From positions 1 to 44,302 of the forward strand of contig JADLDB010000078.1 in assembly GCA_020846875.1 (NCBI GenBank): a stretch of DNA of 44,302 nucleotides. The letters are read 5' to 3'. How positions within the stretch are numbered: the first letter of the stretch is position 1; every line of letters starts with the position of its first letter. Shown piece by piece: positions 27,875 to 44,229 of this stretch. This DNA comes from Myxococcales bacterium. Its GTDB lineage: Bacteria; Myxococcota; Myxococcia; Myxococcales; Myxococcaceae. The translations under genes and the position numbers were made by a program. A model generated the notes under the pieces. That model was not told where the DNA came from, ran no database searches, and saw only the letters and a program-made list of their open reading frames with translations.

Positions 27875-30800
27875 TTGGAGCGCCGCGTCCTCATCGTCGA
27901 GAGCCAGAACGACTTCGCGCTGACGATGGCGTCGGTGCTCAAGAGCGCGGGCTACCAGACCAGCCTCGCAGCCAGCGCCGGGGACGCCCAACGGGAGCTG
28001 GAGAAGCGCCGGCCGGACCTGGTCGTCTTACGCGCCGAGCTGCCGGATCAGAGCGGCTTCGTCCTCTGCGGCACCATCCGCAAGGGGCGCTTCGGGCCCA
28101 ACCTGCCCGTCATCCTCCTGTCGTCGGACGTCGGCGCCGAGGCGCTGCGCCAGCACGCGCAGAGCGCCAACGCGGCCAACGGCTACCTCGCCATCCCCTT
28201 CGAGATGGGGGAGCTCACCACCTTGACCCAGACTTTCGTCCCGCCCGGAGCCCCTGCCGCCTCGCCGTCGTCTACCCAGGACGAATTGGACGCGGATCTC
28301 ACCAACGCCTTGACCGGCCAGGGCCCGCAGGAAGGCGGAGGGCCCACCGCGCCGCCGCCCCTGAAGACGAGCCCTGGTGGCCCGCCCCGCCTGCCCCGCC
28401 GCGAGCGCCGCAGCGCGCTGACCGACGAAGACAAGGCCTTCCTCGACCGCGCCTTCAGCTCCATCGCCGATCGCAAGGCCGAGCTGTTGGCCGAGAGCCG
28501 CGAGGTGCGCCGCTCCGCTCCGCGCCGCGAGCAGATGGGCACGCCGGAGGCGAAGATCCAGATCCTCCGGGACGAGCTGAAGAGCCGCGAGGCACAGATC
28601 GCCCGCATCTCCGAGATCTGGTCGGTGCGCGAGCGCGAGCTGTTGTCGGTCGAGGATCGCCTGTCCGAGAAGGACGTGGAGATCCAGGGCCACAAGATGC
28701 AGGTGGACGATCTGTCGCGCCGGCTCAACGAGTCGCAGAACACGCTGGTGGAGAAGGAGCGCGAGCACGGCCGGCAGGTGGAGGACCTGCTGCTCCAGAA
28801 GTTCATCGGCGAGAAGGAAGTCATCGAGGTCGTCTCGGCGAAGGAGAAGGAAGTCAACGTCCTGCGCAAGGAGAAGACGGGCCTCGAGGAAGAGCTGGCC
28901 CGCCGCGGCGCCGAGCTGGAGCAGTCCCGTAAGGAGACCGAGCAGGTCGAGAAGGACTACCAGCTCGCGACGCTGGAGTTCGAGGTCAAGGAGAAGGAGC
29001 TGCAGGAGGCGGTCGCCCAGCGCAACACGCAGCTCGAGGCCCTGCACCGGGACGTCGAAGGCCTCACCCACCAACTGCAGGACACGGTGGCCGGCCGCGA
29101 CGCGAAGTACGCCGACTACGAGGGCCAGCTCAAGGCCCTGAGCGAGACGCTGGAGAAGACCCAGGCCGAGCGCGACGCCACGGTGGGCGACCTGGAGTCC
29201 AAGCTGCGGCTGTCCGAGGAGCACGCCCAGGCCAGCGATCTCGAGGGCGAGCGGCTCCAGGGCGAGCTGGCCGACGCCAAGGCCCGCGCCGCGGAGAAGG
29301 TGGGCAACCTCGAGGGCGAGATCGCCACGCTGCACACCCACCTGGAGGCGCTCAACACCCAGAAGTCCGAGTCGGAGCAGACGCTCAACGACACCATCGA
29401 GCAGCGCAACGCCCGCATCACTCAGTTGGAAGGCGAGCTGGCCGACACCATCGAGCGGAAGGATCGCGAAGAGGCCGAGCTGCAGTCGCAGATCCAGGCC
29501 CGCATGGAGCAGATCGGCGAGCTGGAAGGCGAAGTGGAGGCCGCCAAGGCCGCCCTGGCCGACCGCGAGGCCGAGCTGACCGCCGAGCTGGGAGACGTGG
29601 GCGCGCAGTTGACCGAGGCCAACGCCGATCGCAACGCGCAGCGCCAGGCGCTGGAGCAGCGGGGCCAGGAGATCCACGGGCTGCAGGCCGCGGTGGCCGA
29701 GCGCAACGAGAGCATCTCGCGGCTGACGCTCAACCTCGACGAGACGCAGAAGGCGCTCCTGGCCACCCAGCAGGCGCTCAACGAGACCCAGGCGGCGCTG
29801 GAGGCGAAGAGCAACGAGCACGCGCTCTCGTCCGACGATCTGGCCCGCACCCAGGCGGAGCTGGCCCAGACGCGCAAGGAGCGCGACGAGCGGCAGGGCG
29901 AGGTGGGCCAGGCTCGCAACGAGATCCAGCGGGTCACCGGCCTGTTCCGCCAGTCAGAGGCGGCCAAGGCCCAGTTGGAAGAGCAGCTGTCCGGAGAGCT
30001 GGGGCAGGTGCGATCTGCGCTGGCCGAGGCCCAGGGCAACTACGAAGCAGAAGCGCAGGCCCACCAGCGGCTGCAGCAGGAGTCGGCCGGCACCATCCAG
30101 CAGCTCACCCAGGAGCGCGCCGCGCTGGCCGAGCGGCTGGAGGCCACCGGCGTCGATCTGGCCGCCACCCGCGCCAACCTCGAGGACACGCTCAAGTCCC
30201 TGGACATCGAGAAGCGCGCCCACGCGGACACCAACCAGCACTACGCGGCGAAGGTGCAGGCGCTGGAAGGCGAGCTGGGCAAGGTGCGCGGGCAGGCGCA
30301 GGATCTGGCGGAGAACATCACCGCCACCAAGCAGGAGCTGGGCGCCCGCGTCTCCGAGCTGACGCAGATGAACGCGCGGCTGGCCCACGCGGAGGACACC
30401 CGGGCCCACCTCGAGGAGCGGATCTCCACCCACACCGAGGAGTCAGGGCGGCGCGAGGAGCTGCTGCAGAACGATCTGGCCACCAAGTCCAAGGAGCTGG
30501 CCGACACCCTGCGCAAGCTGACCACCCTGCAGCAGGAGAAGGTGCGGCAGGTGGACGCGCTGACCCGAGAGGTCACCGCGAAGACGGAGGCGGCCAAGAC
30601 GCTCGAGGGCAAGCTGAAGTCGCTGTTCGACGAGTCGAAGAAGAAGACGGACGAGCTGAGCCACCGCGGGGCGGGGCTGGCCGCCGAGCTGGACGCGGCC
30701 CGCAAGGACCTCGCCGAGAAGACCGACGGCCTGGCCAAGGCCTCCCAGGCCCACCAGCACGCGGTGCAGGAGCGCGATCAGGTGCGCGGGCAGATGCAGA

Positions 30801-31690
30801 CGGCCATTCAGCAGGCCAACGCGCGGATCCAGGAGGCGAACAACGCCATCGCCCAGGAGAAGGCCGCCGGGAAGAAGCACGCCGACGAGCTGACCCAGAA
30901 GCTGCAGCGCGCCGAGGCGCGGATCGCCCAGGTGCAGCAGGAGGCGTCAACCAAGGGCGGCGAGATGGAGACGCGGCTCAAGGACGCGCAGAACCAGCTG
31001 GGCCTGCGGCAGCGCCGGGTCGCCGAGCTGGAGCAGGCCATGGAGGCCGCCAGCGCCGCCCGCACCCGGAACGAGAAGGAGCTGCAGGCGAAGATCGCCG
31101 CCTCGGAGCAGAAGGCCCAGGAGACGATGCAGAAGCTCCAGGTCGCCCTGGGCGAGCGCAAGCAGCTCGAGGCCCGGCACCTCAAGGACGTGGAGGATCA
31201 CGCCACCAAGCACAAGGCGGAGATGGATCGCCGCGAGCAGGTGAAGGCGCAAGAGGTGAAGCGCCTTCAGGAGGCGGTGCAGGAGAAGTCCAAGCAGCTC
31301 AAGGTGGTGGAGCTGGAGCTGGCCCGCTACAAGAACAAGCCGGGCGCCGCTGCCGCCAGGCCCGCTGCCCCGCCCGCCGCCAGGCCCGCCGCGCAGAGCA
31401 CCGCCGCCGCCGCCGCGTCCTTCCTCGGGGAGGACGACGAGGAGCAGGCCACCAAGGTGAACGCGCTGCCCCCCGTCGAGGCCAGGCCCGCCCGGCCGCC
31501 GACCGCAGCGCACCCCGCCGTGGGCGCCAAGGCTCCGGCCGCCAAGCCCGCCGTGGCGATCAGCGCCGCCCCGGCCAAGAAGCCGCAGCAGGGTGAAGAT
31601 CGGACCGTGGTGGTGGCGACTTCCAACTCGCTGCCCAAGAGCGACGACGACGTGGACTTCACGTCGATCATCGACAACCTGGGCGAGTAG
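27875..31690 (+). CDS. aglZ: AglZ: pseudo-receiver and long coiled-coil protein of adventurous gliding motility
   Basis: This is 1271 residues from a TTG at 27875, preceded by AAGGAG at 27863-27868. Residues 1-~115 form a receiver-like domain (ERRVLIVESQNDFALTM) in which the phospho-acceptor Asp is Arg53 (DLVVLRAELPD) and the conserved KP lysine is Ile (AIPFE), so it cannot be phosphorylated normally. Residues ~185-1145 are nearly continuous heptad coiled coil. The end is Ala/Pro-rich and closes with DDVDFTSIIDNLGE. Size, domain order and the N-terminal sequence match Myxococcus xanthus AglZ, a filament-forming protein of the A-motility machinery that works with MglA and the Frz pathway at the leading pole. 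FrzS has the same layout but is much shorter. Confidence 0.92.
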   Translation: MERRVLIVESQNDFALTMASVLKSAGYQTSLAASAGDAQRELEKRRPDLVVLRAELPDQSGFVLCGTIRKGRFGPNLPVILLSSDVGAEALRQHAQSANAANGYLAIPFEMGELTTLTQTFVPPGAPAASPSSTQDELDADLTNALTGQGPQEGGGPTAPPPLKTSPGGPPRLPRRERRSALTDEDKAFLDRAFSSIADRKAELLAESREVRRSAPRREQMGTPEAKIQILRDELKSREAQIARISEIWSVRERELLSVEDRLSEKDVEIQGHKMQVDDLSRRLNESQNTLVEKEREHGRQVEDLLLQKFIGEKEVIEVVSAKEKEVNVLRKEKTGLEEELARRGAELEQSRKETEQVEKDYQLATLEFEVKEKELQEAVAQRNTQLEALHRDVEGLTHQLQDTVAGRDAKYADYEGQLKALSETLEKTQAERDATVGDLESKLRLSEEHAQASDLEGERLQGELADAKARAAEKVGNLEGEIATLHTHLEALNTQKSESEQTLNDTIEQRNARITQLEGELADTIERKDREEAELQSQIQARMEQIGELEGEVEAAKAALADREAELTAELGDVGAQLTEANADRNAQRQALEQRGQEIHGLQAAVAERNESISRLTLNLDETQKALLATQQALNETQAALEAKSNEHALSSDDLARTQAELAQTRKERDERQGEVGQARNEIQRVTGLFRQSEAAKAQLEEQLSGELGQVRSALAEAQGNYEAEAQAHQRLQQESAGTIQQLTQERAALAERLEATGVDLAATRANLEDTLKSLDIEKRAHADTNQHYAAKVQALEGELGKVRGQAQDLAENITATKQELGARVSELTQMNARLAHAEDTRAHLEERISTHTEESGRREELLQNDLATKSKELADTLRKLTTLQQEKVRQVDALTREVTAKTEAAKTLEGKLKSLFDESKKKTDELSHRGAGLAAELDAARKDLAEKTDGLAKASQAHQHAVQERDQVRGQMQTAIQQANARIQEANNAIAQEKAAGKKHADELTQKLQRAEARIAQVQQEASTKGGEMETRLKDAQNQLGLRQRRVAELEQAMEAASAARTRNEKELQAKIAASEQKAQETMQKLQVALGERKQLEARHLKDVEDHATKHKAEMDRREQVKAQEVKRLQEAVQEKSKQLKVVELELARYKNKPGAAAARPAAPPAARPAAQSTAAAAASFLGEDDEEQATKVNALPPVEARPARPPTAAHPAVGAKAPAAKPAVAISAAPAKKPQQGEDRTVVVATSNSLPKSDDDVDFTSIIDNLGE

Positions 31691-34135
31691 CTACTTCGCC
31701 TCGAGGATCACGATCGAGCGCGGCTTCACCACGTAGTCCGGGGTGGTGACGGCTTCCGGCGCGTCGAGCCAGGCGTTGCTGGTGGCCCGCTGGGGCTTGC
31801 CCAGCGTCACCAGCGTCTCGGGAAGATCCCAGTACGGCTGGGTGTCGATGACTCGCTTCCAGGCGCGCCCTTGCGGCAGCGAGAAGGTGACGTCGGCCGC
31901 CTCACCGTTGATGAGGATCGCGAGCTCCGGGCCCTTCGACGCGTCCCAGTAGTGCAGCAGGAGCTGCTTGCTGTCCCAGGCCACTTGATCCGTGTTCTGC
32001 GCGCTCTTCCAGGAGAACGGGGCCGACTGGCCATACTCCAGCGGGGCGAAGGCGTAGAGGTGCTCCTTGCGGAAGCGGATCACCTGCTTGACGAAGTCGT
32101 GCATGCGGTGCCGGGGGTCCTGGGCCTGGTAGGTGCCCCAGTCCATCCAGTTCGACTCGTTGTCGGCCAGGGTGCTGTAGGCGTTGTTGTTGCCCAGTTG
32201 GGTCCGCAGCCACTCGTCGCCCTGGTAGAGCAAGGGCGTGCCGTGGCTCACCATCAGCGCCACGAAGACGTTCCGCATCATCTGCCGCTTGGTCGCCTCG
32301 TCCTGCCAGTCGCGGGAGCGGTTGTTGTCTTCCCCCGACACCCGCTCGCACCAGGCGCTCGTCGGATCCTTGCAGCACACCGGGTTGAGCGGGCCGCAGC
32401 CGTTGCGCTTCTGGGTGTAGGTGAAGAGATCGTAGAGCGTGAAGCCGTCGTGCACGGTGACGAAGTTGACCGAGTGGTACGGGCGGCGCTGGTTCCACTG
32501 GAACCAGTCGCTCGAGCCGGTGAGGAAGAAGCCGCCGTCCTTCACCTCGGTGGAGTTCAGCTTGAAGCCGTCGATGTTCCAGAAGCTGCGCCACCAGTCG
32601 CGGAAGCGGCCGTTCCACTCACCCCACCCCGTGCCCGGCTTGTTGGTGGCCGCGGGGAACAGGCCGATGCGGGTGCCGTAGCCGTTGGCGAAGGGGTTGC
32701 CGGGGGGGCCGTTCCAGGACTGGGCGAGATCGTAGCCACCCGCGGCCCACGGCTCGGCGATGAGGCGGGTGTTGTACTGCTGCAGCACCGGATCGTCGGC
32801 GATGTCCTGCAGCACGGTGCCCTTCGGGTCCTCCCAGACGAAGTACTGCAGATCCCTCTCGCCCAGCACCGGCGCGAGATCGAAGCGGAAGCCGTCGACG
32901 TGCAGCTCCTCCACCCAGTAGCGCAGGGAGTCGCGAATCAGCCGGCGGAAGGGCGCGTGGTTGCACCGCGTCTCGTTGCCCACGCCGGTGTTGTTCCAGT
33001 AGCTCTGCTTGTCGTCGGACAGCGCGTAGTACGCGTGGTTGTCCAGCCCGCGCAGGTTGTACAGGCCCACCACTTCCTTGGGATCGAAGTTGAGCAGGTC
33101 GCCGGGAATGGAGTCCTGGGGGTTGAAGTCCTGCTCCAGCCGCTCGCGCCAGAAGCCGCCTTCCCCGGTGTGGTTGTAGACGACGTCGAGCAGCACCTCG
33201 ATGTCGCGCTGGTGGAGCTGGTCCACCATCCACTTGAACTCGTCGATGATCTCGTGCTGCTCCTTGCGGAAGCTGTAGGAGTTCTCTGGGATGAAGAAGG
33301 ACAGCGAGTTGTAGCCCCAGTACCCGCCTTCGGACGGCTTCTCGAAGGGCGGCATGACGTGCACCGCGGTGACGCCGAGATCCTTCAGGTAGTCCGCCTT
33401 CTCCCCCAGGCCGCGGAAGGTGCCGGGGTGATCGACGCCCGACGCCGGGCTGGCGGTGAAGCCCCTGGGGTGCAGCTCGTAGAGGATCAGGTCGTTCCAC
33501 CGGTGGCCGGGGGAGTTCTCGTCCTGCCGGCGCGCGCGGTAGCTCGTCTCGTTCTCGCTCCAGGTGTAGCGGCTCTGCACCACCACCGACTTGGACGCCG
33601 CGGCGAAGGTGGAGTCGGTGCGCCTGGGCCCCGTGGCCAGGCTGCCCTTGCTCCAGTCGTGATCGCGGTGGATCGCCTTCGAGTACGGATCCCACAGCAG
33701 CTTGTTGGGGTTGAAGCGGTTGCCATCGGGATCGACGTCGGTGAGGAAGCCCTTGATGGTGCCCGGCGTCCACTCGGGATCGAACGGCCAGTTGGGCCCC
33801 CACGCGATGAAGCCGTAGTGCTGGCCCACGCCCACGCCCTCGACGTGCAGGTTCCACACGCTCGAGTCCGGCACCTTCTCCATCGGGAAGCGGCGGGTGG
33901 GCTGGGTGGACTCGGGCTCGTCGAAGAGGAGCAGCTCGATGCGCTCGGCGCGCTCGCTGTAGACGCCGAAGTTGACGCCCTTGTCGACGATCGTCGGCCC
34001 CAGGTGATCGAGCGCCTTCACCTTCGCCACGTCCAGCGAGGGGGCCACCGGGGTCGTCTTGTACAGCCGCGCGGTGTCGGTGGGCCCGCAGGCGAACGCG
34101 AGGAGGACGAGGGCAAGCAGCGCAGCGTGACGCAT
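31691..34135 (-). CDS. GH13 isoamylase/glycogen-debranching-type lipoprotein
   Basis: This is 814 residues from the ATG at 34135, which gives a lipoprotein signal (MRHAALLALVLLAFAC, Cys16) in place of a longer start nine codons upstream. An N-terminal CBM48/isoamylase-N-like domain (~40-150) precedes a GH13 (beta/alpha)8 barrel. Conserved regions are DVVYNH (I), DGFRFDLA with nucleophile Asp419 (II), IAEPWAAGG with acid/base Glu461 (III) and VTVHD with Asp563 (IV). The sequence resembles GlgX/TreX-type enzymes that cut alpha-1,6 branches, but it is exported and lipid-anchored, so it would act on external glucan. It is divergent from the maltodextrin transporter operon, and its stop directly abuts the aglZ stop. 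Confidence 0.93.
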   Translation of the reverse strand: MRHAALLALVLLAFACGPTDTARLYKTTPVAPSLDVAKVKALDHLGPTIVDKGVNFGVYSERAERIELLLFDEPESTQPTRRFPMEKVPDSSVWNLHVEGVGVGQHYGFIAWGPNWPFDPEWTPGTIKGFLTDVDPDGNRFNPNKLLWDPYSKAIHRDHDWSKGSLATGPRRTDSTFAAASKSVVVQSRYTWSENETSYRARRQDENSPGHRWNDLILYELHPRGFTASPASGVDHPGTFRGLGEKADYLKDLGVTAVHVMPPFEKPSEGGYWGYNSLSFFIPENSYSFRKEQHEIIDEFKWMVDQLHQRDIEVLLDVVYNHTGEGGFWRERLEQDFNPQDSIPGDLLNFDPKEVVGLYNLRGLDNHAYYALSDDKQSYWNNTGVGNETRCNHAPFRRLIRDSLRYWVEELHVDGFRFDLAPVLGERDLQYFVWEDPKGTVLQDIADDPVLQQYNTRLIAEPWAAGGYDLAQSWNGPPGNPFANGYGTRIGLFPAATNKPGTGWGEWNGRFRDWWRSFWNIDGFKLNSTEVKDGGFFLTGSSDWFQWNQRRPYHSVNFVTVHDGFTLYDLFTYTQKRNGCGPLNPVCCKDPTSAWCERVSGEDNNRSRDWQDEATKRQMMRNVFVALMVSHGTPLLYQGDEWLRTQLGNNNAYSTLADNESNWMDWGTYQAQDPRHRMHDFVKQVIRFRKEHLYAFAPLEYGQSAPFSWKSAQNTDQVAWDSKQLLLHYWDASKGPELAILINGEAADVTFSLPQGRAWKRVIDTQPYWDLPETLVTLGKPQRATSNAWLDAPEAVTTPDYVVKPRSIVILEAK

Positions 34136-34273: not shown

Positions 34274-35338
34274 GTGTCCGCGGTCCGCCTGGTCGGCATC
34301 AAGAAGAGCTTCGGTGCCAACGCCATCGTCAAGGGCGTCGATCTGGACGTGGAGGCGGGCGAGTTTCTGGTGATGGTGGGCCCGTCGGGCTGCGGGAAGA
34401 CGACGCTGTTGCGCCTGCTGGCCGGGCTGGAGTCGGTGGACGCCGGGGACCTCTTCGTCGACGGGCAGCGGATGAACGACGTGCCGCCACGCGATCGGGA
34501 CATCGGCATGGTGTTCCAGAGCTACGCGCTCTACCCGCACATGACGGTGCGGGAGAACATGGCCTTCGGCCTCGAGCTGCGGAAGCTGCCCCGGGCGGAC
34601 ATCGACGCGCGGGTGGCGAAGGCCGCGCAGATGCTGGAGCTGGGACAGTTGCTCGAGCGCAAACCCAAAGCCCTGTCGGGTGGACAGCGGCAGCGGGTGG
34701 CGATGGGGCGGGTGATCGTCCGCCAGCCGCGGATCTTCCTGTTCGACGAGCCGCTCTCCAACCTCGACACGGCGCTGCGGGTGCAGATGCGCGGCGAGCT
34801 GGCCCGGCTGCACCGACAGCTTCAAGTGACGATGATCTACGTCACCCACGATCAGGTGGAGGCGATGACGCTGGCCACGCGCGTGGCGGTGTTCAACCAG
34901 GGCCTGCTGCAGCAACTGGGGCCTCCGCTGGAGCTGTACCACCGGCCGGTCAACACCTTCGTGGCCACCTTCCTGGGCAGCCCGTCGATGAACCTGTTGC
35001 CGGCGACCCGCGAGGGCGCGGTGCTCAAGGGCCTGGGCTTCGAGCTGCCCGCACCCGCGGAGGTGAGCGGCGAGGTGCAGGCGGGGCTGCGGCCGCAGGA
35101 CTTGCGGGTGTCGGCGGACGGGCCGATCTCCGGCGAGGTGGAGGCGGTGGAGCGGTTGGGCTTCGACGGCTACGCCTTCCTCAAGACGGCGGCGGGGCCG
35201 GTGGCGGCGCGCTTCGAAGGCGGAATGAACGTCGAGGTTGGCCAGGCGGTGAAGGTGAAGCCGGTGGGCGACGCGCTGCACGTCTTCACGAAGGACGGCG
35301 GGAAGGCGCTGCGGCACCCGGAGGTCCTCGCTTCGTGA
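34274..35338 (+). CDS. malK: CUT1-family sugar ABC transporter ATPase (MalK/UgpC-like)
   Basis: This is 354 residues from a GTG at 34274, chosen because the ABC domain begins right after (VRLVGIKKSFGANAIVKGVD). All ATPase motifs are intact: Walker A GPSGCGKTT (~36-44), Q-loop Gln82, signature LSGGQRQ (~134-140), Walker B IFLFDEP (~154-160), D-loop SNLD and switch His192. A TOBE-type C-terminal domain (~240-354) is typical of MalK/UgpC/MsmK. It energises carbohydrate import at the cytoplasmic face. The next gene starts inside its stop codon (GTGA). The permease neighbours and the GH13 gene point to maltodextrin rather than glycerol-phosphate as substrate. Confidence 0.93.
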   Translation: MSAVRLVGIKKSFGANAIVKGVDLDVEAGEFLVMVGPSGCGKTTLLRLLAGLESVDAGDLFVDGQRMNDVPPRDRDIGMVFQSYALYPHMTVRENMAFGLELRKLPRADIDARVAKAAQMLELGQLLERKPKALSGGQRQRVAMGRVIVRQPRIFLFDEPLSNLDTALRVQMRGELARLHRQLQVTMIYVTHDQVEAMTLATRVAVFNQGLLQQLGPPLELYHRPVNTFVATFLGSPSMNLLPATREGAVLKGLGFELPAPAEVSGEVQAGLRPQDLRVSADGPISGEVEAVERLGFDGYAFLKTAAGPVAARFEGGMNVEVGQAVKVKPVGDALHVFTKDGGKALRHPEVLAS

Positions 35339-37521
35339 GCCGAGCCGAATGCACCCTCGCTCACCTCGGGGCAGAGGGGAAGCTGATCCTCCTCCTGCTC
35401 GTCGCCTCCCTGACCGCGCACGCCGCGCCGCTCAAGCTGTGGCACGGCTACCGCGGCGGCGAAGAAGCAGCCCTGCAGACGGCGGCGACGAAGTTCACCG
35501 AGTCGACAGGGATCGCGGTGGAGCTGCTCGCGGTCCCCTACGACGCGCTGTCCTCCAAGCTGACCAGCGCGATCCCCCACGACGCCGGGCCGGACGTCTT
35601 CATCTTCGCGCACGAGCGGCTGCGGCAGTTCCACCGGATGCAGATCGTCGCGCCGTCCACGCGGTGGCTGGCGAAGGACGCGTACCTGAAGCCCACGGTG
35701 GACGCGCTGGAGCTCGACGGCGACTGGTACGGCTACCCGCTGTCGCTCAAGTGCCTGGCGCTGTTCTCCAACACGGCGAAGGTGCCTTCCCCACCCCGCA
35801 CCACGGGCGAGCTGGAGGCGCTGTTGCCCGGCCTGTCCCAGCCTGCGCGCGCGGAGTTCGGCCTGGCCTGGGAGGCGGGGGACTTCTACTTCCACGCGCC
35901 GATCTTCTTCGGCTTCGGCGGCCAGCTCTTCGACGCGAGCGGCAAGGCGCAGTTCGACACACCGGCGATGGCGGCGTCGCTGGCGTGGGTGAAGTCACTT
36001 CAGGATCGCCAGTTCCTCCCGCAGGAGGTCTCGGGCGCGCTGGTGAAGTCGCTGTTCAACGAGGGCCGGGCGGCGATGGTGATCAGCGGGCCGTGGTTCG
36101 CGGGGGAGATCGACGCGTCGGTGAAATACCAGGTGACGCCGCTGCCCACCGTCGACGCCACCGGGCTGCCCATGTCGCCCTTCCTCGGGGTGGAGGCGGC
36201 CTTCGTCTCTTCCCGCAGCCAGAGCCCCGAGGCGGCCCAGCACCTGGCGCGCTTCCTCTCCTTGAGCGCGGCCACGCTGGAGCGGGTGAAGGTGGGCCGG
36301 CAGATCCCCGCGGAGAAGGCGGCGTACGACGATCCGGCGGTTGCAGCCGATCCGCTGATCGCCGCCTTCCGCGCGGTGGCCGAGCGCGCGACGCCCACGC
36401 CCAACACGCTGGAGATGGCGCGGGTGTGGGAGCCGATGAAGCTGGCCCTGCGCGGCGTGCTGCAGGGCGGCGTGGAGCCGAAGGACGCAGGCCAGCTCGC
36501 GACCCGCCGGTACAGGGCGCTGCACCGGGAGGCGCCTCCCAAGGCCAACCCGGCCCCCTACGCGGCGGCCCTGACGCTGCTCGTCGTCGGCTTCGTCGTC
36601 TTCCGGCTCAAGCGGGCCACGGGGCGCACGGCGTTCGATCGCGAGGCGGTGCGGGGGCTGGCCTACGTGGCGCCGGCGGCCGCGGGGATCCTGGTGCTGG
36701 TGGTGATCCCCCTGGTGGTGGGCCTCGGGCTGTCGGTGTTCCACCACGAGGCGGGGACGTATTCCTTCGTGGGGCTGGCCAACTTCACCGACATCCTCGC
36801 GTCGAAGGGCTACGCGATCACCGAGCCGCTCTCCTTCTACTTCACGCTGAGCGTCACCATCCTGTGGACGCTGGTCAACGTGGCGCTGCACGTCGGCATC
36901 GGGCTGTTCCTGGCCATCCTGCTCAAGGAGCCGCTGCTCAAGCTGCGCGGGGTGTACCGGGTGCTGCTCATCGTCCCCTGGGCGGTGCCCAACTACATCA
37001 CCGCGCTGATGTGGAAGGGCATGTTCCACCGCCAGTTCGGCGCCATCAACGGGCTGCTCTCGCTGCTGGGCCTCGAGCCGGTGAGCTGGTTCACCCGCTT
37101 CGCCACGTCGTTTGCGGCGAACGTGACGACCAACACCTGGCTGGGCTTCCCCTTCATGATGGTGGTGTCCCTGGGCGCGCTGCAGTCGATCCCCCAGGAT
37201 CTCTACGAGGCGGCGGAGGTGGACGGCGCGTCGAAGTGGACGCAGTTCCGGCGGATCACCCTGCCCTTGCTCAAGCCCGCGCTGCTGCCGGCGGTGATCC
37301 TCGGCAGCGTGTGGACCTTCAACATGTTCAACGTGATCTACCTGGTGTCGGGCGGCGAGCCGGGCGGGGCCACGGACATCCTGGTGAGCGAGGCGTACCG
37401 CTGGGCCTTCCAGCGCAACGAGCAGTACGGCTTCGCCGCGGCGTACTCGGTGCTGATCTTCTTCGTGCTCTTGGCCTGGTCGCGGGTGACGAAGAAGCTG
37501 TCAGGCGAGGAGCCGGCGTGA
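35335..37521 (+). CDS. MalE-MalF fusion: maltodextrin-binding protein joined to ABC permease
   Basis: This is 728 residues from a GTG at 35335 that overlaps the malK stop by four bases. Residues ~17-31 form an export signal (LILLLLVASLTAHAA). Residues ~32-395 are an extracellular solute-binding domain (PLKLWHGYRGGEEAALQTAA, DVFIFAHERL, FNEGRAAMVISGPW). A transmembrane helix at ~408-424 then leads back to the cytoplasm, and a MalF-type permease with about six helices follows from ~440. It carries the EAA loop YEAAEVDGASKWTQFRRITL (~624-643) that docks on MalK. In most bacteria these are two proteins; here each permease carries its own binding protein. I recall a similar fusion described in Bdellovibrio. 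The downstream malG overlaps by GTGA. Confidence 0.93.
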   Translation: MSRAECTLAHLGAEGKLILLLLVASLTAHAAPLKLWHGYRGGEEAALQTAATKFTESTGIAVELLAVPYDALSSKLTSAIPHDAGPDVFIFAHERLRQFHRMQIVAPSTRWLAKDAYLKPTVDALELDGDWYGYPLSLKCLALFSNTAKVPSPPRTTGELEALLPGLSQPARAEFGLAWEAGDFYFHAPIFFGFGGQLFDASGKAQFDTPAMAASLAWVKSLQDRQFLPQEVSGALVKSLFNEGRAAMVISGPWFAGEIDASVKYQVTPLPTVDATGLPMSPFLGVEAAFVSSRSQSPEAAQHLARFLSLSAATLERVKVGRQIPAEKAAYDDPAVAADPLIAAFRAVAERATPTPNTLEMARVWEPMKLALRGVLQGGVEPKDAGQLATRRYRALHREAPPKANPAPYAAALTLLVVGFVVFRLKRATGRTAFDREAVRGLAYVAPAAAGILVLVVIPLVVGLGLSVFHHEAGTYSFVGLANFTDILASKGYAITEPLSFYFTLSVTILWTLVNVALHVGIGLFLAILLKEPLLKLRGVYRVLLIVPWAVPNYITALMWKGMFHRQFGAINGLLSLLGLEPVSWFTRFATSFAANVTTNTWLGFPFMMVVSLGALQSIPQDLYEAAEVDGASKWTQFRRITLPLLKPALLPAVILGSVWTFNMFNVIYLVSGGEPGGATDILVSEAYRWAFQRNEQYGFAAAYSVLIFFVLLAWSRVTKKLSGEEPA

Positions 37522-38372
37522 GCGCGCGCGCCCTGCCCCGCTGGAAGCTGTTCGCCCTGCACGCGGGCCTGGCGGTGCTGTGCGTCGTCACCCTCTACCC
37601 GGTGCTGTGGGTGGTGAAGCTGGCGCTCTCGCCCACGCAGGCCTTGTCCCTGTCGGTGAGCCCCTTCCCCGAGGCGGTGACGCTCGATCACTTCCGCGAC
37701 GTGGTGGGCGCGACGGACGCCCAGGGGCGCTGGCTGTTCGGGCGCCAACTGCTCGCCAGCCTGGTGGTGTCGGCGGCCACCACGCTGGTGGGCCTCTCGT
37801 TGGCCGTCACCGCCGCCTACGCGCTGTCGCGCTTCCGTTTCCCGGGCAAGCAGTCGGGCATGCAGGCGCTCCTGGTGACGCAGATGTTCCCCGGCACGCT
37901 GATGCTGGTGCCGCTGTACTCCATCCTCCAGGCGCTGGGGCTCATCGACACCTGGGGCGGGCTGGTGCTGGTGTACGCCACCACCTCGCTGCCCTTCTGC
38001 GTGTGGATGCTCAAGGGCTACTTCGACACGATCCCCCGGGAACTGGAGGAGGCGGCGATCATGGACGGCGCCACCCCGGGACAGGTCTTCGTGCGCGTGG
38101 TGCTGCCGCTGGCCCGCCCGGCGCTGGCCGTCACCGCGCTCTTCAGCTTCATGACGGCGTGGAACGAGTTCATCCTGGCCGCCACCCTGCTCAACGACAC
38201 GGCGCGCTTCACCCTGCCGGTGGCGCTGCAGCGCTTCGTGGGCGAGTACAAGACGGAATGGGGCCACTTCGCGGCGGGGGCGTTGATCGTCTCCGCGCCG
38301 GTGATGGCGCTCTTCTTCGCGCTGCAGAAGTACCTGGTGGGCGGGCTGACCGCCGGCGCCGTGAAGGGCTGA
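37518..38372 (+). CDS. malG: Maltodextrin ABC transporter permease MalG
   Basis: This is 284 residues from a GTG at 37518 overlapping the fusion gene's stop. The protein has the six transmembrane helices of a CUT1 MalG-type permease. The first is near residues 12-35 (LFALHAGLAVLCVVTLYPVL), and the conserved MFPGTLMLVPLY and TTSLPFCVWMLKGYF segments follow. The EAA loop is EEAAIMDGATPGQVFVRVVL. It pairs with the MalF half of the fusion to form the channel. It is the third of three genes coupled by successive GTGA overlaps, so equimolar synthesis is likely. The last ~355 bases are antisense to the open frame of the convergent lipoprotein gene. Confidence 0.94.
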   Translation: MSARALPRWKLFALHAGLAVLCVVTLYPVLWVVKLALSPTQALSLSVSPFPEAVTLDHFRDVVGATDAQGRWLFGRQLLASLVVSAATTLVGLSLAVTAAYALSRFRFPGKQSGMQALLVTQMFPGTLMLVPLYSILQALGLIDTWGGLVLVYATTSLPFCVWMLKGYFDTIPRELEEAAIMDGATPGQVFVRVVLPLARPALAVTALFSFMTAWNEFILAATLLNDTARFTLPVALQRFVGEYKTEWGHFAAGALIVSAPVMALFFALQKYLVGGLTAGAVKG

Positions 38373-39316
38373 ATCTTGCCCGCGTCGCCCGGCACCGGGC
38401 CTCGGCGCACCTGCTCGCTGGGTACGCTCGTCTTCGGCGTGGGCTGCCGCTGTGGCCCGGACGGTGGCGGCGGCACCTGCCGCTGGAGGTGGACGAAGCG
38501 CATGCTGGTCTTCTGCTCGTAGCGGACGATCGACGTGGAGCGCGGCGGGCCGGTGAGGACCTCCACCCGGAAGCTCAAGTCCAGGCGGTGCGGCAGCAGC
38601 GTCTCGGGCTCGGAGAGGACCTGCAGCTCGTACTCGACGGCGCGGGGCTCGAAGGCTTCCCCCGGGCGGCGATCCTTCTCGTCCACCACCGCGTTGAACA
38701 GCGCGAGGACGCTGGGGGCGTCGGGGCGGAAGGTGGCGTTGAGCTTCTGGCACCAGCCCGACGGCGCGCCCTCGCACGGCGCGTAGCCGTCGCCGGTGAG
38801 GTACGCGGTGAAGCGCAGGTGCCCGAGGAACTCGTCGTCCACCTCGTTGGGCAGCTCCACCGTCTGGCCAGAGACGAGATCGGTCGGGTTCCACAGGGCC
38901 ACCCACAGGTTCCAGAGGAACTGCGGCGAGTGGGCGTACGGCCGGTGCTCCGCGGGCCGGGCCTCGCGCGACGCAGGCCGGGTGAGGAGCCGCCCGTCGC
39001 GGGAGATTTCCACCACGAAGGGCTTCACCTCCACAGAGGGATCCTGCTCGCCCAGCGGATCGAGGCGGACGGTGGCGTACCCGGGCTGGACGGTGTGCAC
39101 CAGCCGCAGCCAGGCCTGGGCCGTCTCGGTGGACCGCCCGTTGACGAGGGTGCGCTGGTGGATCTGCACCTGGGTGTCGGGAAGAGCCGGCCAGGCGAAG
39201 CGGGACACCATGCGCACGGCCTGGCCCTGGGGCGCGGCGGGCACGCCCTCCGCGGGGTTGACGGAGTGGACACACCCGGCGAGGGAGAGGGCGGCGAGGC
39301 AGGCCAGGGCGCGCAT
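38018..39316 (-). CDS. Putative lipoprotein; true 3' end uncertain
   Basis: The frame from the ATG at 39316 encodes a lipoprotein (MRALACLAALSLAGCVHSV, Cys15) of 432 residues. Its first ~314 residues look genuine: a beta-rich domain with RMVSRFAWPALPDTQVQIHQ, PGYATVRLDPLG and VEYELQVLSEPE, then a charged, proline-rich end. From 38372 downwards the frame is antisense to malG, and the translated ~118 residues look like antisense by-product. Either the stop codon has been lost or a frameshift hides it, or the gene really overlaps malG by 355 bases. No family is recognised. It is divergent from the IPT lipoprotein gene. Confidence 0.7.
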   Translation of the reverse strand: MRALACLAALSLAGCVHSVNPAEGVPAAPQGQAVRMVSRFAWPALPDTQVQIHQRTLVNGRSTETAQAWLRLVHTVQPGYATVRLDPLGEQDPSVEVKPFVVEISRDGRLLTRPASREARPAEHRPYAHSPQFLWNLWVALWNPTDLVSGQTVELPNEVDDEFLGHLRFTAYLTGDGYAPCEGAPSGWCQKLNATFRPDAPSVLALFNAVVDEKDRRPGEAFEPRAVEYELQVLSEPETLLPHRLDLSFRVEVLTGPPRSTSIVRYEQKTSMRFVHLQRQVPPPPSGPQRQPTPKTSVPSEQVRRGPVPGDAGKIQPFTAPAVSPPTRYFCSAKKSAITGAETINAPAAKWPHSVLYSPTKRCSATGRVKRAVSLSRVAARMNSFHAVMKLKSAVTASAGRASGSTTRTKTCPGVAPSMIAASSSSRGIVSK

Positions 39317-39430: not shown

Positions 39431-41767
39431 GTGATCCGCCGCGTCTTCCCCGTCCTCGCCATCGCCCTCGCCTCGCTCGGCTGCCCGTCCACGTCCAACC
39501 CCGACGGAGGAGGCGCGTACCCCATCGTCACCTCCGTCTCGCCGGCGCAGGGCCCGCTGACGGGCGGCACGCTGGTGACGGTCAACGGCGTCAACTTCGT
39601 CACGGGCGCAACGGTGCGCTTCGACGACGCGCCAGGCACCGAGGTCGCCTTCGTCAGCAGCGCGCGCCTCACGGTGAAGTCTCCGGCCGTCACCAACCCC
39701 GGGGCGTCCTCCGTCACCGTCGTCAACCCCGATGGGAGGAGCGGCTCGCTGCCGGGCGCCTTCACCTTCACGACGGTGACGACGCGCACCATCACGGAAG
39801 CCGTGTTGGACAACCCGGCCTCGGCGGCAGACGCCTCGGGGACGGCGCTGGTGTCCGTGGCCGTCTCGGCGCAGGTGCAGGTGCCGGGGGCGACCGCGGG
39901 GCTCGGCCAGGGAAGCGGCGTGCGGGCCCAGGTGGGCTTCGCGACGGCCGTCTCGACGCCCCCTTCGGACGCGGACTTCACCTGGAGCCCGGCGTCGTAC
40001 CTCGGCGACGCGGACGGCCCCAGCCCGGGCGATCTGGCGCGCGACGCGTACACGGGGACGGTGACGGTGCCGGGCGCCACCTCCGCGGAGGTGACGTACG
40101 TCCTCGCCGCCCGCTTCTCGGTGGACGACGGCGCGACGTGGACGATCGCGGATCGCGACGGCGCGGCCAACGGCGTGGACGGCGCGCAGCTCTCACGGCT
40201 CACCGTGGCCCGAGCGTCGGTGGACTGGTGTAAGCTGGGCGGTGAGGCGATCGAGCCGCCTCCCAGCCTCATGCTGCGCACGGGCGCGGCGGGCCCCACC
40301 ATCTTCGGGCAGGTCTACAAGCAGGGCGTCACCGAGGTGGCGGGCGCCGGCAGCCAGGTGAAGGGACAACTGGGCCTGGGCGCGCCGGGGACGGATCCGG
40401 CGACCTGGACGTGGGTGGACGCGGCGTTCAACCGGGACACCAACAGCAACGCCAACGACGAGTTTGAGGCGGTGCTGACACCTCCCTCGGCGGGCAGCTA
40501 CAAGTTCGCCTTCCGCTTCAACCACGCAGATGGCCCGTGGACGTACTGCGACGCCGACGGCCTGGCCAACGGAGGCTTCACCGAGGCGCAGGCCGGCAGC
40601 CTCACCGTCACCGCGGCGGCCATCGATCGCTGCCTCCTGCAGTTCCCCGCGACGCTGATGACGGTGCAGGGCCAGCCGAGCGCGCTGGTGTACGGGCGCG
40701 TCTTCTCGACGGGGCTGACGGAGCCGGCGGGCCAGGGCGCGGGGATCGACGGCGAGCTGGGCTTCGGTCCCTTCGCGGACGCGCCGTCGATGCCGAGCTG
40801 GACGTGGACGAGCCAGGCGAGCTTCAACACCGACGTCACGGGTGGAGGCGACGAGTACCAGGCGCGGATCGCCGGGCCCGCCCCGGGCAGCTACGCGTAC
40901 GCTTGGCGCTTCCGGCTGAGCGGCGGGGCGTGGGTGTACTGCGATCTGGACGGCAGCGAGAACGGCTTCAATGCGGCTCAGGCGGGGGCGCTGACGGCGA
41001 TGTCTCCGGGCACGGCGATCAGCGCGTGCCGGCTCCGGTCGGTGTCGGCCTTCTCGGTGATGAGCGGCGGGCCGGTGACGGGGGCGGTGCGGGTGGTGGT
41101 GCCGGGCGTGTCGGGGAGCGCCGGCGCGACGCCCAACCTGCGCGTCCAGGTGGGAGTGGGAGCGCAGGGGACCAACGCCAGCGCGGGCACGTCGTGGGGC
41201 TGGGGCGAGGCGGCCTTCTCGAGCGACGAGGCGATGCAGGAGGAGGAGTGGCGGCTCGCGTTCCACCCCGCGTACACGGGCAACCGCGCCGTCTCGGGCC
41301 GCGCGTCGCTCGACGATGGAGGCACGTGGACGTACTGCGATCTCAACGGCAGCGACGTGGGCGGCTACGAGGTGAGCCAGCAGTACGACGTGCAGGTGAC
41401 GCCGCACGCGGACCTCGACTGGTGCAACCTGCAGTCGCCGCTGACGGGCCCCGTGGGGACGACGGTGTACGGGCGGGTGTACGAGGCGGGCGTGACGCCC
41501 AACGCCGCGGCGCCGATCTCCGCGCAGCTGGGGCTGGGCGTGGAGTCGGAGGATCCAGGCCTCGCGTGGACGTGGATCAACGCGGCCTTCAACGTGACGG
41601 CAGGAAACGACAACGAGTACCAGGCGGCCTTACCCGACGCGGGGGCGGGCACGCGCTACGCGTTCCGCTTCACGCTGGACGGCGGCAGCTTCTGCTACGG
41701 CGACGGCGACGGCTCCACCACCGCCGGCTTCTCCGGAGGCGCCAACATCGGCCAGGTGGTGCCTTGA
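39431..41767 (+). CDS. Surface lipoprotein with IPT domain and about five Cys-paired repeat modules
   Basis: This is 778 residues from a GTG preceded by AAGGAG. A lipoprotein signal ends in LASLGC (Cys18). An IPT/TIG immunoglobulin-like domain covers ~31-117 (PIVTSVSPAQGPLTGGTLVT). Five modules of ~110-150 residues then follow. Most open with a conserved Cys (VDWC, DRC, SACR, LDWC), continue with a beta-rich core (GQVYKQGVTE, QLGLGAPGT, TWTWVDAAFN, NDEFEA) and close with YCDxDGxxNG. The first module has WTIADRDGAANG instead and lacks the Cys pair. The paired Cys residues suggest one disulfide per module. I do not recognise the module as a named family. Position beside the maltodextrin genes hints at glucan binding, which is inference. 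Confidence 0.85.
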   Translation: MIRRVFPVLAIALASLGCPSTSNPDGGGAYPIVTSVSPAQGPLTGGTLVTVNGVNFVTGATVRFDDAPGTEVAFVSSARLTVKSPAVTNPGASSVTVVNPDGRSGSLPGAFTFTTVTTRTITEAVLDNPASAADASGTALVSVAVSAQVQVPGATAGLGQGSGVRAQVGFATAVSTPPSDADFTWSPASYLGDADGPSPGDLARDAYTGTVTVPGATSAEVTYVLAARFSVDDGATWTIADRDGAANGVDGAQLSRLTVARASVDWCKLGGEAIEPPPSLMLRTGAAGPTIFGQVYKQGVTEVAGAGSQVKGQLGLGAPGTDPATWTWVDAAFNRDTNSNANDEFEAVLTPPSAGSYKFAFRFNHADGPWTYCDADGLANGGFTEAQAGSLTVTAAAIDRCLLQFPATLMTVQGQPSALVYGRVFSTGLTEPAGQGAGIDGELGFGPFADAPSMPSWTWTSQASFNTDVTGGGDEYQARIAGPAPGSYAYAWRFRLSGGAWVYCDLDGSENGFNAAQAGALTAMSPGTAISACRLRSVSAFSVMSGGPVTGAVRVVVPGVSGSAGATPNLRVQVGVGAQGTNASAGTSWGWGEAAFSSDEAMQEEEWRLAFHPAYTGNRAVSGRASLDDGGTWTYCDLNGSDVGGYEVSQQYDVQVTPHADLDWCNLQSPLTGPVGTTVYGRVYEAGVTPNAAAPISAQLGLGVESEDPGLAWTWINAAFNVTAGNDNEYQAALPDAGAGTRYAFRFTLDGGSFCYGDGDGSTTAGFSGGANIGQVVP

Positions 41768-42111: not shown

Positions 42112-44229
42112 GTGCGTCTCCTCGTGGTTGTTGTCTTCGTCCTGACCGCGGAGGCCCTCGCAGCGCCTCCGGTGATGACCAACCTGAATCCCGCCTCGCG
42201 GCCGTCCGCCCGCACCGGCCCCGGCGTGGCCGCCAATCGAGTCAGCGGGGGCGAAACCATCTTCCTCTTCGGGGGCAACGCCACCCTCAGCGGCACCAAC
42301 AACCAGCTCTGGTCCTACGGCGTCGGCGCCAACACCTGGACGCAGCACAGCCCAGGCGGCACCGCGCCCACCGCGCGCGCGTGGCACAACCTCACCTGGG
42401 ACGAAGGCCAGCAGCGCCTCGTCCTCTTCGGAGGCAGCGCCGCCCTCGCCGGCCCCCTGCGCAACGACGTGCACCTCTACAACCCCGCGACCGACACCTG
42501 GTCGCAGCCGACCGTCTCCGGCACGCCTCCCTCCGCGCGCTTCCTCGCCAACATGTTCTACGTACCGTCGATCGCCTCACACCTGCTCGTCTTCGGCGGC
42601 ACCGGCACCTCCAGCAACGCCGAGGCCACCGTCCTCACCAACGAGCTCTGGCGCCTCACCATCAACGCCACCACCAACAGCGCCACCTGGACCCTGCTGT
42701 CCCCCTCCGGCCCCCTGCCCGTCCCCCGCGCCAGCGCCTGCATGGGCTTCGATCCGGCGCGCAACCGCCTGATCGTCTTCGGCGGTGAGATCATCAACGA
42801 CACCATCACCGAGACCGCCCAGTACGACGTCGCCTCCAACACCTGGTCCATCGACACCGCCGGCGGCGCGGCGCCCACCAAGCGCGGCTCCGCGGTGTGC
42901 AGCTTCGACGAGCGCAGCGGGAAGCTCCTCCTGTACGGCGGCGTCTCCACCCCCAGCGGCAGCCCGATGGGGGCCGCGTACAGCTACGATCCCGTCGCCC
43001 GCTTCTGGAGGCAGCTCTCCCCTTCCCCCAACCCCGGCAACCTCACCTTCGCCGGCCCCTCCTGGAGCGCCGGCCTGGGCGCCGTCTTCTTCTTCGGCGG
43101 GCGCAACTCGCTGATCAGCGTCTCCCAGGCCACCTGGACCTTCCGCGCCAACGCCCCACCCGTCCTCCTCGTCACCTCGCCCGTCAGCTTCGGCGAGAAC
43201 ACGATGGCCACGCTCAGCGCCGCCGCGTCGTCGGATCTCGACGGTGATCCCCTCACCTACACCTGGACGCAAACCCAGGGCCCGCCCGTCACCCTCACCA
43301 ACCCCACCACTGCCACGCCGTCCTTCACCACGCCGTCCGTCCTGGCCCCCACTCCCCTGGCCTTCGCCGTCAGCGTCACCGACGGCGTCGAGTCGGCCGA
43401 CGGAGGCGTCTCCGTCACTATCCTCGACGACGTGAACGAGCCGCCCGTCGCCGACGCCGGCCCCAATCAATCGGCCTCGAGCGGCAACCTCGTCTCTCTC
43501 AGCGGATCCGCCTCGTTCGATCCCAACGGTGAGCCGATCACCTTCCAGTGGACGCAGAGCGGCGGGCGCATGGTCACCCTGGCCACGCCCACCTCAGCCA
43601 CCACCCGCTTCACCGCGCCTGGCGTGCCAGCCACCGAGACGCTCACCTTCCTCCTGACCGTCAGGGATTCGCGGATGGGCGCGGGGATGGACTCCGTGTC
43701 CGTGGACGTCTCTCCAGGTGCCGGCGGAGGCGCCGGGGGCGGTGGTGGCACCGGGGTTGATGCGGGGGGTGGCGGAGGTGCAGGCACTGACGCTGGCGGC
43801 GGCGGGATGGGCGGTGGCATGGGCGGCGGCATCGGCGGCGGGATGGGCGGCGGGATGGGCGGCGGCGGCGCGGGAGGCGGAGCTGGAGGCAGCACCGGCA
43901 CTGACGCCGGCCCGGACGACGGCGGCGCCGACGCAGGCGAGAGCCCTGACGGCGGCGACGACGGTGGACTTCCCAGCGACGGTGGACTTCCCAGCGACGG
44001 TGGACTTCCCAGCGACGGTGGACTTCCCAGCGACGGTGGACTCCCCAGCGACGGTGGACTCCCCAGCGACGGTGGGCTTTCGGAAGACGGGGGCACCGCT
44101 GACGCAGGCCCCGGCAGTCCGAAGAGCCTGACGGTCGGCTGCGGCTGCTCCACCACGCTGGACTGGCCCCTGGCGCTGCTGATCCTCACCGCCGGCCTCA
44201 CCCGGAGACGGCGCCGCGCCCCTCCCTGA
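42112..44229 (+). CDS. Kelch-repeat surface protein with Ig-like domains and MYXO-CTERM signal
   Basis: This is 705 residues from a GTG. A signal peptide (LLVVVVFVLTAEALAAPP) precedes Kelch-type beta-propeller blades at ~25-345, each with a strand such as ETIFLFGGN, QRLVLFGGS, SHLLVFGGT, NRLIVFGGE or GKLLLYGGV followed by W-x-x-L or NTW. Two PKD/cadherin-like domains follow (LTYTWTQTQGPPVTLTNPTT; then PPVADAGPNQSASSGNLVSL and ITFQWTQ). Next is a long Gly/Asp/Ala linker (GGGMGGGMGGG, then six LPSDGG copies). The protein ends with a MYXO-CTERM signal: VGCGCSTTLDW, a hydrophobic helix and TRRRRR. It is therefore predicted to be displayed on the cell surface through myxosortase processing. A carbohydrate or adhesion ligand is plausible but not shown. 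Confidence 0.92.
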   Translation: MRLLVVVVFVLTAEALAAPPVMTNLNPASRPSARTGPGVAANRVSGGETIFLFGGNATLSGTNNQLWSYGVGANTWTQHSPGGTAPTARAWHNLTWDEGQQRLVLFGGSAALAGPLRNDVHLYNPATDTWSQPTVSGTPPSARFLANMFYVPSIASHLLVFGGTGTSSNAEATVLTNELWRLTINATTNSATWTLLSPSGPLPVPRASACMGFDPARNRLIVFGGEIINDTITETAQYDVASNTWSIDTAGGAAPTKRGSAVCSFDERSGKLLLYGGVSTPSGSPMGAAYSYDPVARFWRQLSPSPNPGNLTFAGPSWSAGLGAVFFFGGRNSLISVSQATWTFRANAPPVLLVTSPVSFGENTMATLSAAASSDLDGDPLTYTWTQTQGPPVTLTNPTTATPSFTTPSVLAPTPLAFAVSVTDGVESADGGVSVTILDDVNEPPVADAGPNQSASSGNLVSLSGSASFDPNGEPITFQWTQSGGRMVTLATPTSATTRFTAPGVPATETLTFLLTVRDSRMGAGMDSVSVDVSPGAGGGAGGGGGTGVDAGGGGGAGTDAGGGGMGGGMGGGIGGGMGGGMGGGGAGGGAGGSTGTDAGPDDGGADAGESPDGGDDGGLPSDGGLPSDGGLPSDGGLPSDGGLPSDGGLPSDGGLSEDGGTADAGPGSPKSLTVGCGCSTTLDWPLALLILTAGLTRRRRRAPP
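43960..44067 (+). repeat. Six tandem copies of an 18-bp unit (LPSDGG)
   Basis: The unit GACGGTGGACTTCCCAGC is repeated six times in register (43960, 43978, 43996, 44014, 44032, 44050). Copies 1-4 are identical, and copies 5 and 6 differ by one base (CTCCCC for CTTCCC). A seventh, diverged unit begins at 44068. It encodes the linker of the Kelch protein just before the MYXO-CTERM signal. Confidence 0.93.

Follow-up and report, generated by a model that had tools for sequence, protein, structure and literature searches.

The question raised by this locus is what a lipoprotein built of five copies of a nameless module does beside genes for the import and breakdown of starch fragments. The window, which is the whole stretch of DNA analysed (44,302 nucleotides), is contig C78 of a Myxococcales assembly of 7.06 Mb in 200 contigs. 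From its place among these genes, which recurs in many soil bacteria of the group, the lipoprotein probably keeps starch or glycogen close to the cell during consumption. The full reading, to which we assign a probability of roughly 0.6, is that an outer-membrane lipoprotein with a string of Ig-like modules captures alpha-glucans and holds them near a lipid-anchored debranching enzyme, the maltodextrins then reaching a MalEF-G-K importer.

The array lipoprotein is encoded at 39431-41767 (plus strand) by an open reading frame of 778 aa with a GTG start and, as read in the sequence, AAGGAG just 5' of it. Its N-terminus, VIRRVFPVLAIALASLGC, is a lipoprotein signal. The signal peptide and lipobox ASLG-C18 are located at 39431..39484 (plus strand), the mature protein presents Pro at +2 and +7, and Cys18 is almost invariant among orthologues aligned in 16 rows. 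An IPT/TIG domain follows (residues 31-113, 39521..39769, plus strand; Pfam PF01833, E 8.4e-13), belonging to this family by its 48.6 bits against a Pfam gathering score of 20.9. The rest of the protein is formed by five related modules, all on the plus strand and scored with an HMM made only from modules of other genomes: module 1, without Cys pair, at 39776..40210 (101 bits); module 2, WC...YCDADGLANG, at 40223..40612 (146 bits); module 3, RC...YCDLDGSENG, at 40625..41002 (145 bits); module 4, AC...YCDLNGSDVG, at 41021..41401 (94 bits); and module 5, WC...FCYGDGDG, whose second Cys is shifted two residues, at 41417..41761 (103 bits). This is the architecture that the first-pass annotation had described from the letters of the sequence.

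The same HMM delimited the five domains at residues 122-260, 265-394, 399-524, 531-657 and 663-777 (94-146 bits), whereas none of 200 shuffled versions of the lipoprotein was reported up to E 10. When each copy was left out in turn and searched with an HMM of the remaining four, copies 1 to 5 were recovered at 41, 112, 98, 54 and 68 bits, against at most 10.5 bits in 1000 shuffles per copy, so the repeat is not due to chance. An HMM of the modules and the searches made with it, a check proposed in the first-pass annotation, confirmed the repeat and found relatives across the genomes of the phylum. Several details of that annotation were adjusted. Copy length, given there as some 110-150 residues, is about 115-140. 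The closing motif YCDxDG, reported for copies 2, 3 and 4, is complete as YCDxDGxxNG in copies 2 and 3, but copy 4 has YCDLNGSDVG. Copy 1 indeed lacks the Cys pair and reads IADRDGAANG, and copy 5, correctly singled out at its closing motif, retains its second Cys two residues earlier (FCYGD).

The module was aligned in 139 full copies from the fetched loci and the window. The usual Cys pair is present in 110 of them, in 13 the second Cys comes two residues earlier, both are missing in 16 and none has a single Cys; the pair co-varies perfectly and behaves as a disulfide. The other conserved positions of the 139 modules are T32 (94%), G46 (98%), W59 (84%), W61 (96%), R94 (99%), D106 (93%), G109 (92%) and G114 (80%), C3 being kept in 88%. 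All 13 arrays of the window's type begin with a module devoid of the Cys pair and end with one that has the shifted pair, a pattern absent from the remaining eight multi-module arrays. Modules 1, 2, 3, 4 and 5 match their counterparts colinearly in the arrays of the window's family, with copy number varying in the middle of the array. This colinear order, together with the Cys pattern, makes the array an old, ordered structure. A decayed or freshly duplicated repeat was rejected, the array positions being colinear between genera.

By sequence the module is unnamed so far and no sequence family covers it. In a Pfam scan none of 119 modules exceeded the cut-offs, and weak matches at E up to 0.1 were spread over 19 families. 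The NCBIfam scan of the same 119 also gave weak matches, the best being choice-of-anchor J (8 of 119, E 0.0026), and a PDB search with the 119-module profile returned no match up to E 10. Searching PDB with the lipoprotein alone retrieved mostly IPT structures matching the N-terminal part, plus weak titin, dynein and surface-protein matches. GlgE_dom_N_S was matched weakly by four of the 119 (best E 0.0068), and among the carbohydrate-binding modules (CBMs) CBM_48 alone was hit within E 0.1, by one module of the 119 (E 0.039); the curated cut-offs of the Pfam CBMs, including CBM20 and CBM48, were reached by none. The profile-profile comparison covered CBM48, CBM20 and TIG. Membership in CBM48 or CBM20 was rejected (hhalign probability 0.4% each against the CBM48 and CBM20 of the same loci), as was TIG membership of the five modules (0.4%). 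The lipoprotein resembles the IPT/TIG proteins (PF01833) in its N-terminal TIG, and many arrays have TIG-like sequence ahead of the modules, but the modules themselves are not TIG. Nothing on the array lipoprotein was found in the open-licence literature searched, to which this statement is limited. Apart from the locus, a 3158-aa reading frame with over 10 TIG-like matches was noted in the same genome (G000:C37, 6002-12169).

The structure of module 3, predicted with AlphaFold2 from 119 aligned modules, is almost all beta (pLDDT 97.9, pTM 0.91), and the module is confidently modelled as an Ig-like beta-sandwich. The best Foldseek match is SorT sulfite dehydrogenase (E 4.6e-4), followed by Thermus maltogenic amylase (E 4.8e-4), with TVA II and a CBM21 just behind. 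In VIA the top match is GlgE domain N (Z 10.1, rmsd 2.5, 98 aligned), with a Listeria cycloalternan enzyme (Z 9.7) next, ahead of TVA I (Z 9.1, a malto-hexaose entry); immune-receptor Ig domains range from Z 8.3 to 9.1, including PD-1 (9.1) and T-cell receptors (8.8). The modelled module is therefore most like the N-domains of alpha-glucan enzymes, by a modest margin. The comparison with CBM folds, likewise proposed at first pass, gave a predicted sandwich compatible with the CBM34, CBM48 and CBM21 type, a fold common to many non-CBM domains. Among the GH13 N-domains (GlgE domain N, TVA I/II, maltogenic amylase, CBM48, CBM21), GlgE, TVA I/II, maltogenic amylase and a CBM21 are included in the nearest solved folds; the N-terminal domain of TVA I/II and maltogenic amylase is classed as CBM34. 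The modules differ from this group in having no significant sequence or profile similarity to it, in being tandem and in not being fused to a catalytic barrel. According to PMC5076824, domain N of GlgE serves structure and the dimer interface and the reported secondary glucan sites are on domain C, so likeness of fold is no proof of binding.

The module is also a general extracellular domain. One or two copies were found in lamin-tail proteins, in nuclease-like proteins and in secreted proteins of Bacteroidota. Where single, the module lies at the end or in the midst of a large lamin-tail protein, ahead of an endonuclease/exonuclease/phosphatase domain, or within a Flavobacterium-type T9SS protein. 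Numerous unrelated secreted proteins also carry it, with fn3, PKD, Big and LTD domains as neighbours. Its presence in such single-module, non-amylase proteins means that the module alone does not indicate glucan binding. In two loci (L086, 8916-10817; L085, 478-3189) a module without Cys pair precedes the endonuclease/exonuclease/phosphatase domain, and in a third (L073, 10049-14074, minus strand) about 20 Dicty_CTDC-type Cys repeats are followed by lamin-tail, TIG and one module.

These results bear on an unlikely, though serious, alternative, in which the modules are passive Ig-like spacers making no contact with glucan, either a stalk lifting the TIG domain or a scaffold joining the debranching enzyme and the amylase. 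An Ig-like fold with high-scoring non-carbohydrate neighbours would suit a spacer, as would the occurrence of the module near fn3, PKD, Big and LTD domains. The full-length model agrees too: each of its six domains is predicted well (mean pLDDT 86.9) but their mutual arrangement is hardly fixed (pTM 0.43), as in beads on a string. Against spacers stand the two Trp, the Arg and the Asp/Gly positions so strongly conserved in the 139 modules, although this conservation may be structural, and the identity kept by each array position, which is beyond what a plain spacer needs.

The reading of glucan capture draws on the neighbouring genes. Upstream of the lipoprotein are three genes with overlapping reading frames: a MalK-like ABC ATPase at 34274..35338 (plus strand; start possibly 34265), a MalE-MalF protein in one polypeptide at 35335..37521 (plus strand) and a MalG-like permease at 37518..38372 (plus strand; NCBIfam MalG 201.6 bits, cut-off 261). 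The ATPase, also matching Pfam OB_MalK, scores 411.6 bits with NCBIfam MalK (cut-off 568) and 448.7 with the UgpC subfamily (cut-off 432). In the fused protein the best NCBIfam matches, MalE at residues 33-391 and MalF at 474-722, are below the equivalog cut-offs, and PDB gave MalF 2r6g and maltose-binding proteins. Divergent from the mal genes, at 31691..34135 (minus strand), is a GlgX-like debranching enzyme with CBM_48 and alpha-amylase domains (TIGR02100 433 bits, cut-off 641), predicted from its N-terminus (LLAFA-C) to be a lipoprotein; a Myxococcus isoamylase is the subject of PMC11544908. A single minus-strand gene (38018-39316) separates malG from the array lipoprotein. It encodes a predicted lipoprotein, its frame overlaps the malG 3' end on the opposite strand, and its product was matched in none of the 40 fetched loci that were searched.

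The first-pass annotation had remarked on the position beside a maltodextrin importer and a debranching enzyme, and this linkage is kept across genomes, more strongly than it could see. Module matches were found in 34 of 60 relatives and in 118 of 195 genomes of the phylum, MalEF matches in 142 of the 195. The window's family contributes 96 genomes to this search, of which 49, called from single BLAST matches and with fusion inferred from partial MalEF matches in G005, G013, G025 and G107, have the fused MalE-MalF importer. The array is present in 48 of these 49. It lies within 11 kb of MalEF on the same contig in 39 genomes of 8 genera, 27 of them belonging to a single genus, counts that are not independent, the linked genomes being kin; in 9 others array and importer are on different contigs of fragmented assemblies. 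The only exception is G031, without array, in which the contig stops 161 bases past the malG frame. Of the other 47 genomes of the family, 7 have no importer match and 40 a split importer (matches on the permease half only, often plus a second match on the binding-protein half), with 0-3 module matches each. Fused and split importers thus divide the family, and the fused form accompanies the array.

Outside the family 23 genomes have at least 3 module matches and 22 of them, all except G193, were compared; one module position was entered per genome, and G062, G063, G064 and G067, whose modules are in separate proteins, were entered as without array. The array is linked to the importer in 4 of the 22, namely G036, G163, G037 and G056 (in the last two the MalF part of MalEF is the only matching part), and is on another contig than the importer in 14. 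In G037 (locus L060) one strand carries a debranching enzyme, a LamB-like porin, a CBM20 alpha-amylase, the array, MalK, MalF and MalG. In G065 and G066 the CBM20 alpha-amylase is directly upstream of the array and the importer elsewhere; G065 has in addition a debranching enzyme. At the level of fetched loci, MalEF was found in 11 of 20 multi-module loci, whereas neither MalEF nor MalG was found in any of the 20 single-module loci examined, therefore it is the array form that travels with alpha-glucan genes. Chance linkage of the array to mal was rejected by these locus counts and the genome counts.

The array could instead capture another target, such as a different polysaccharide, peptidoglycan, exopolysaccharide or a prey surface, and adjoin the mal genes since both serve feeding. 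We consider this rather improbable. In its favour, the arrays of family f9 adjoin nadA, those of f11, f19 and f31 are unlinked, other multi-module arrays are also found in non-glucan places, and a GH2 gene is near one array (L183); however, array and fused importer go together in nearly every fused-importer genome of the window's family, and amylase, debranching or LamB-like neighbours accompany arrays in three families. It is very improbable that the module is calcium-dependent with DxDGxxNG, likened to a calcium-binding loop at first pass, as a metal site for folding or binding, for despite the conserved D106, G109 and G114 in the loop before the last strand, D108 is replaced by N in 21% of modules and the 19 families to which the 119 modules gave weak matches include neither EF-hand nor dockerin, both rejected as identities.

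Under glucan capture, the lipoprotein would face outward from the outer membrane and capture starch, glycogen or pullulan fragments. In the M. xanthus sorting rule, as given in PMC3222651, Lys at +2 directs a lipoprotein to the inner membrane and Ala at +7 to the extracellular matrix; with Pro at both positions the rule predicts the outer membrane. Several modules, each binding weakly, may hold the glucan by avidity, the lipid-anchored debranching enzyme would cut it, and the MalEF-G-K importer would take up the released maltodextrins. In other lineages a CBM20 alpha-amylase and a LamB-like porin may join the system. The surface glucan-binding array proposed at first pass gains from the conserved genomic context and the compatible fold, but the module is not specific to amylase loci. 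The annotation had counted against itself a confident non-carbohydrate match or an occurrence restricted to unrelated contexts; the searches gave neither.

SusE and SusF, the surface glycan-binding lipoproteins of Bacteroidota polysaccharide-utilisation loci, are understood to hold starch by multi-site avidity. The array lipoprotein is like them in its predicted lipid anchor (lipobox ASLG-C), in its row of several non-catalytic beta-sandwich domains in the predicted structures, in lacking a catalytic domain and in belonging, by gene neighbourhood, to a starch-utilisation locus. It differs in its ABC MalEF-G-K importer, in the LamB-like porin of one lineage and in modules with a Cys staple matched by no Pfam model. 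It is not a SusE/SusF member by any sequence test made, and the best reading by analogy is that it may work like them. The myxobacterial lamin-tail plus endonuclease/exonuclease/phosphatase proteins and the Flavobacterium T9SS proteins share the module in one or two copies and, unlike the lipoprotein, have no array and no MalEF or MalG in their single-module loci.

A likely function is thereby given to a widespread extracellular domain that has no existing model. In these predatory soil bacteria the locus suggests a system for starch capture, with a surface array paired to an ABC importer. Should glucan binding hold, the module would define a CBM family not yet described, represented in both Myxococcota and Bacteroidota. 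More tentatively, the module may found a family of disulfide-stapled Ig-like CBMs and the lipoprotein may be the surface capture component of Myxococcota starch uptake with each position specialised, the first module unstapled and the last with a shifted staple. The module is a small domain with a confident structure prediction and should be easy to express.

Two other genes of the window flank this region. The one at 42112-44229 encodes a protein with Kelch and PKD-like parts, PSDGGL repeats and a C-terminal end resembling that of myxosortase substrates (partial NF038112 match). The one at 27875-31690 encodes a protein in which a very long coiled coil comes after a response-regulator domain, presumably resembling FrzS-type polarity proteins.
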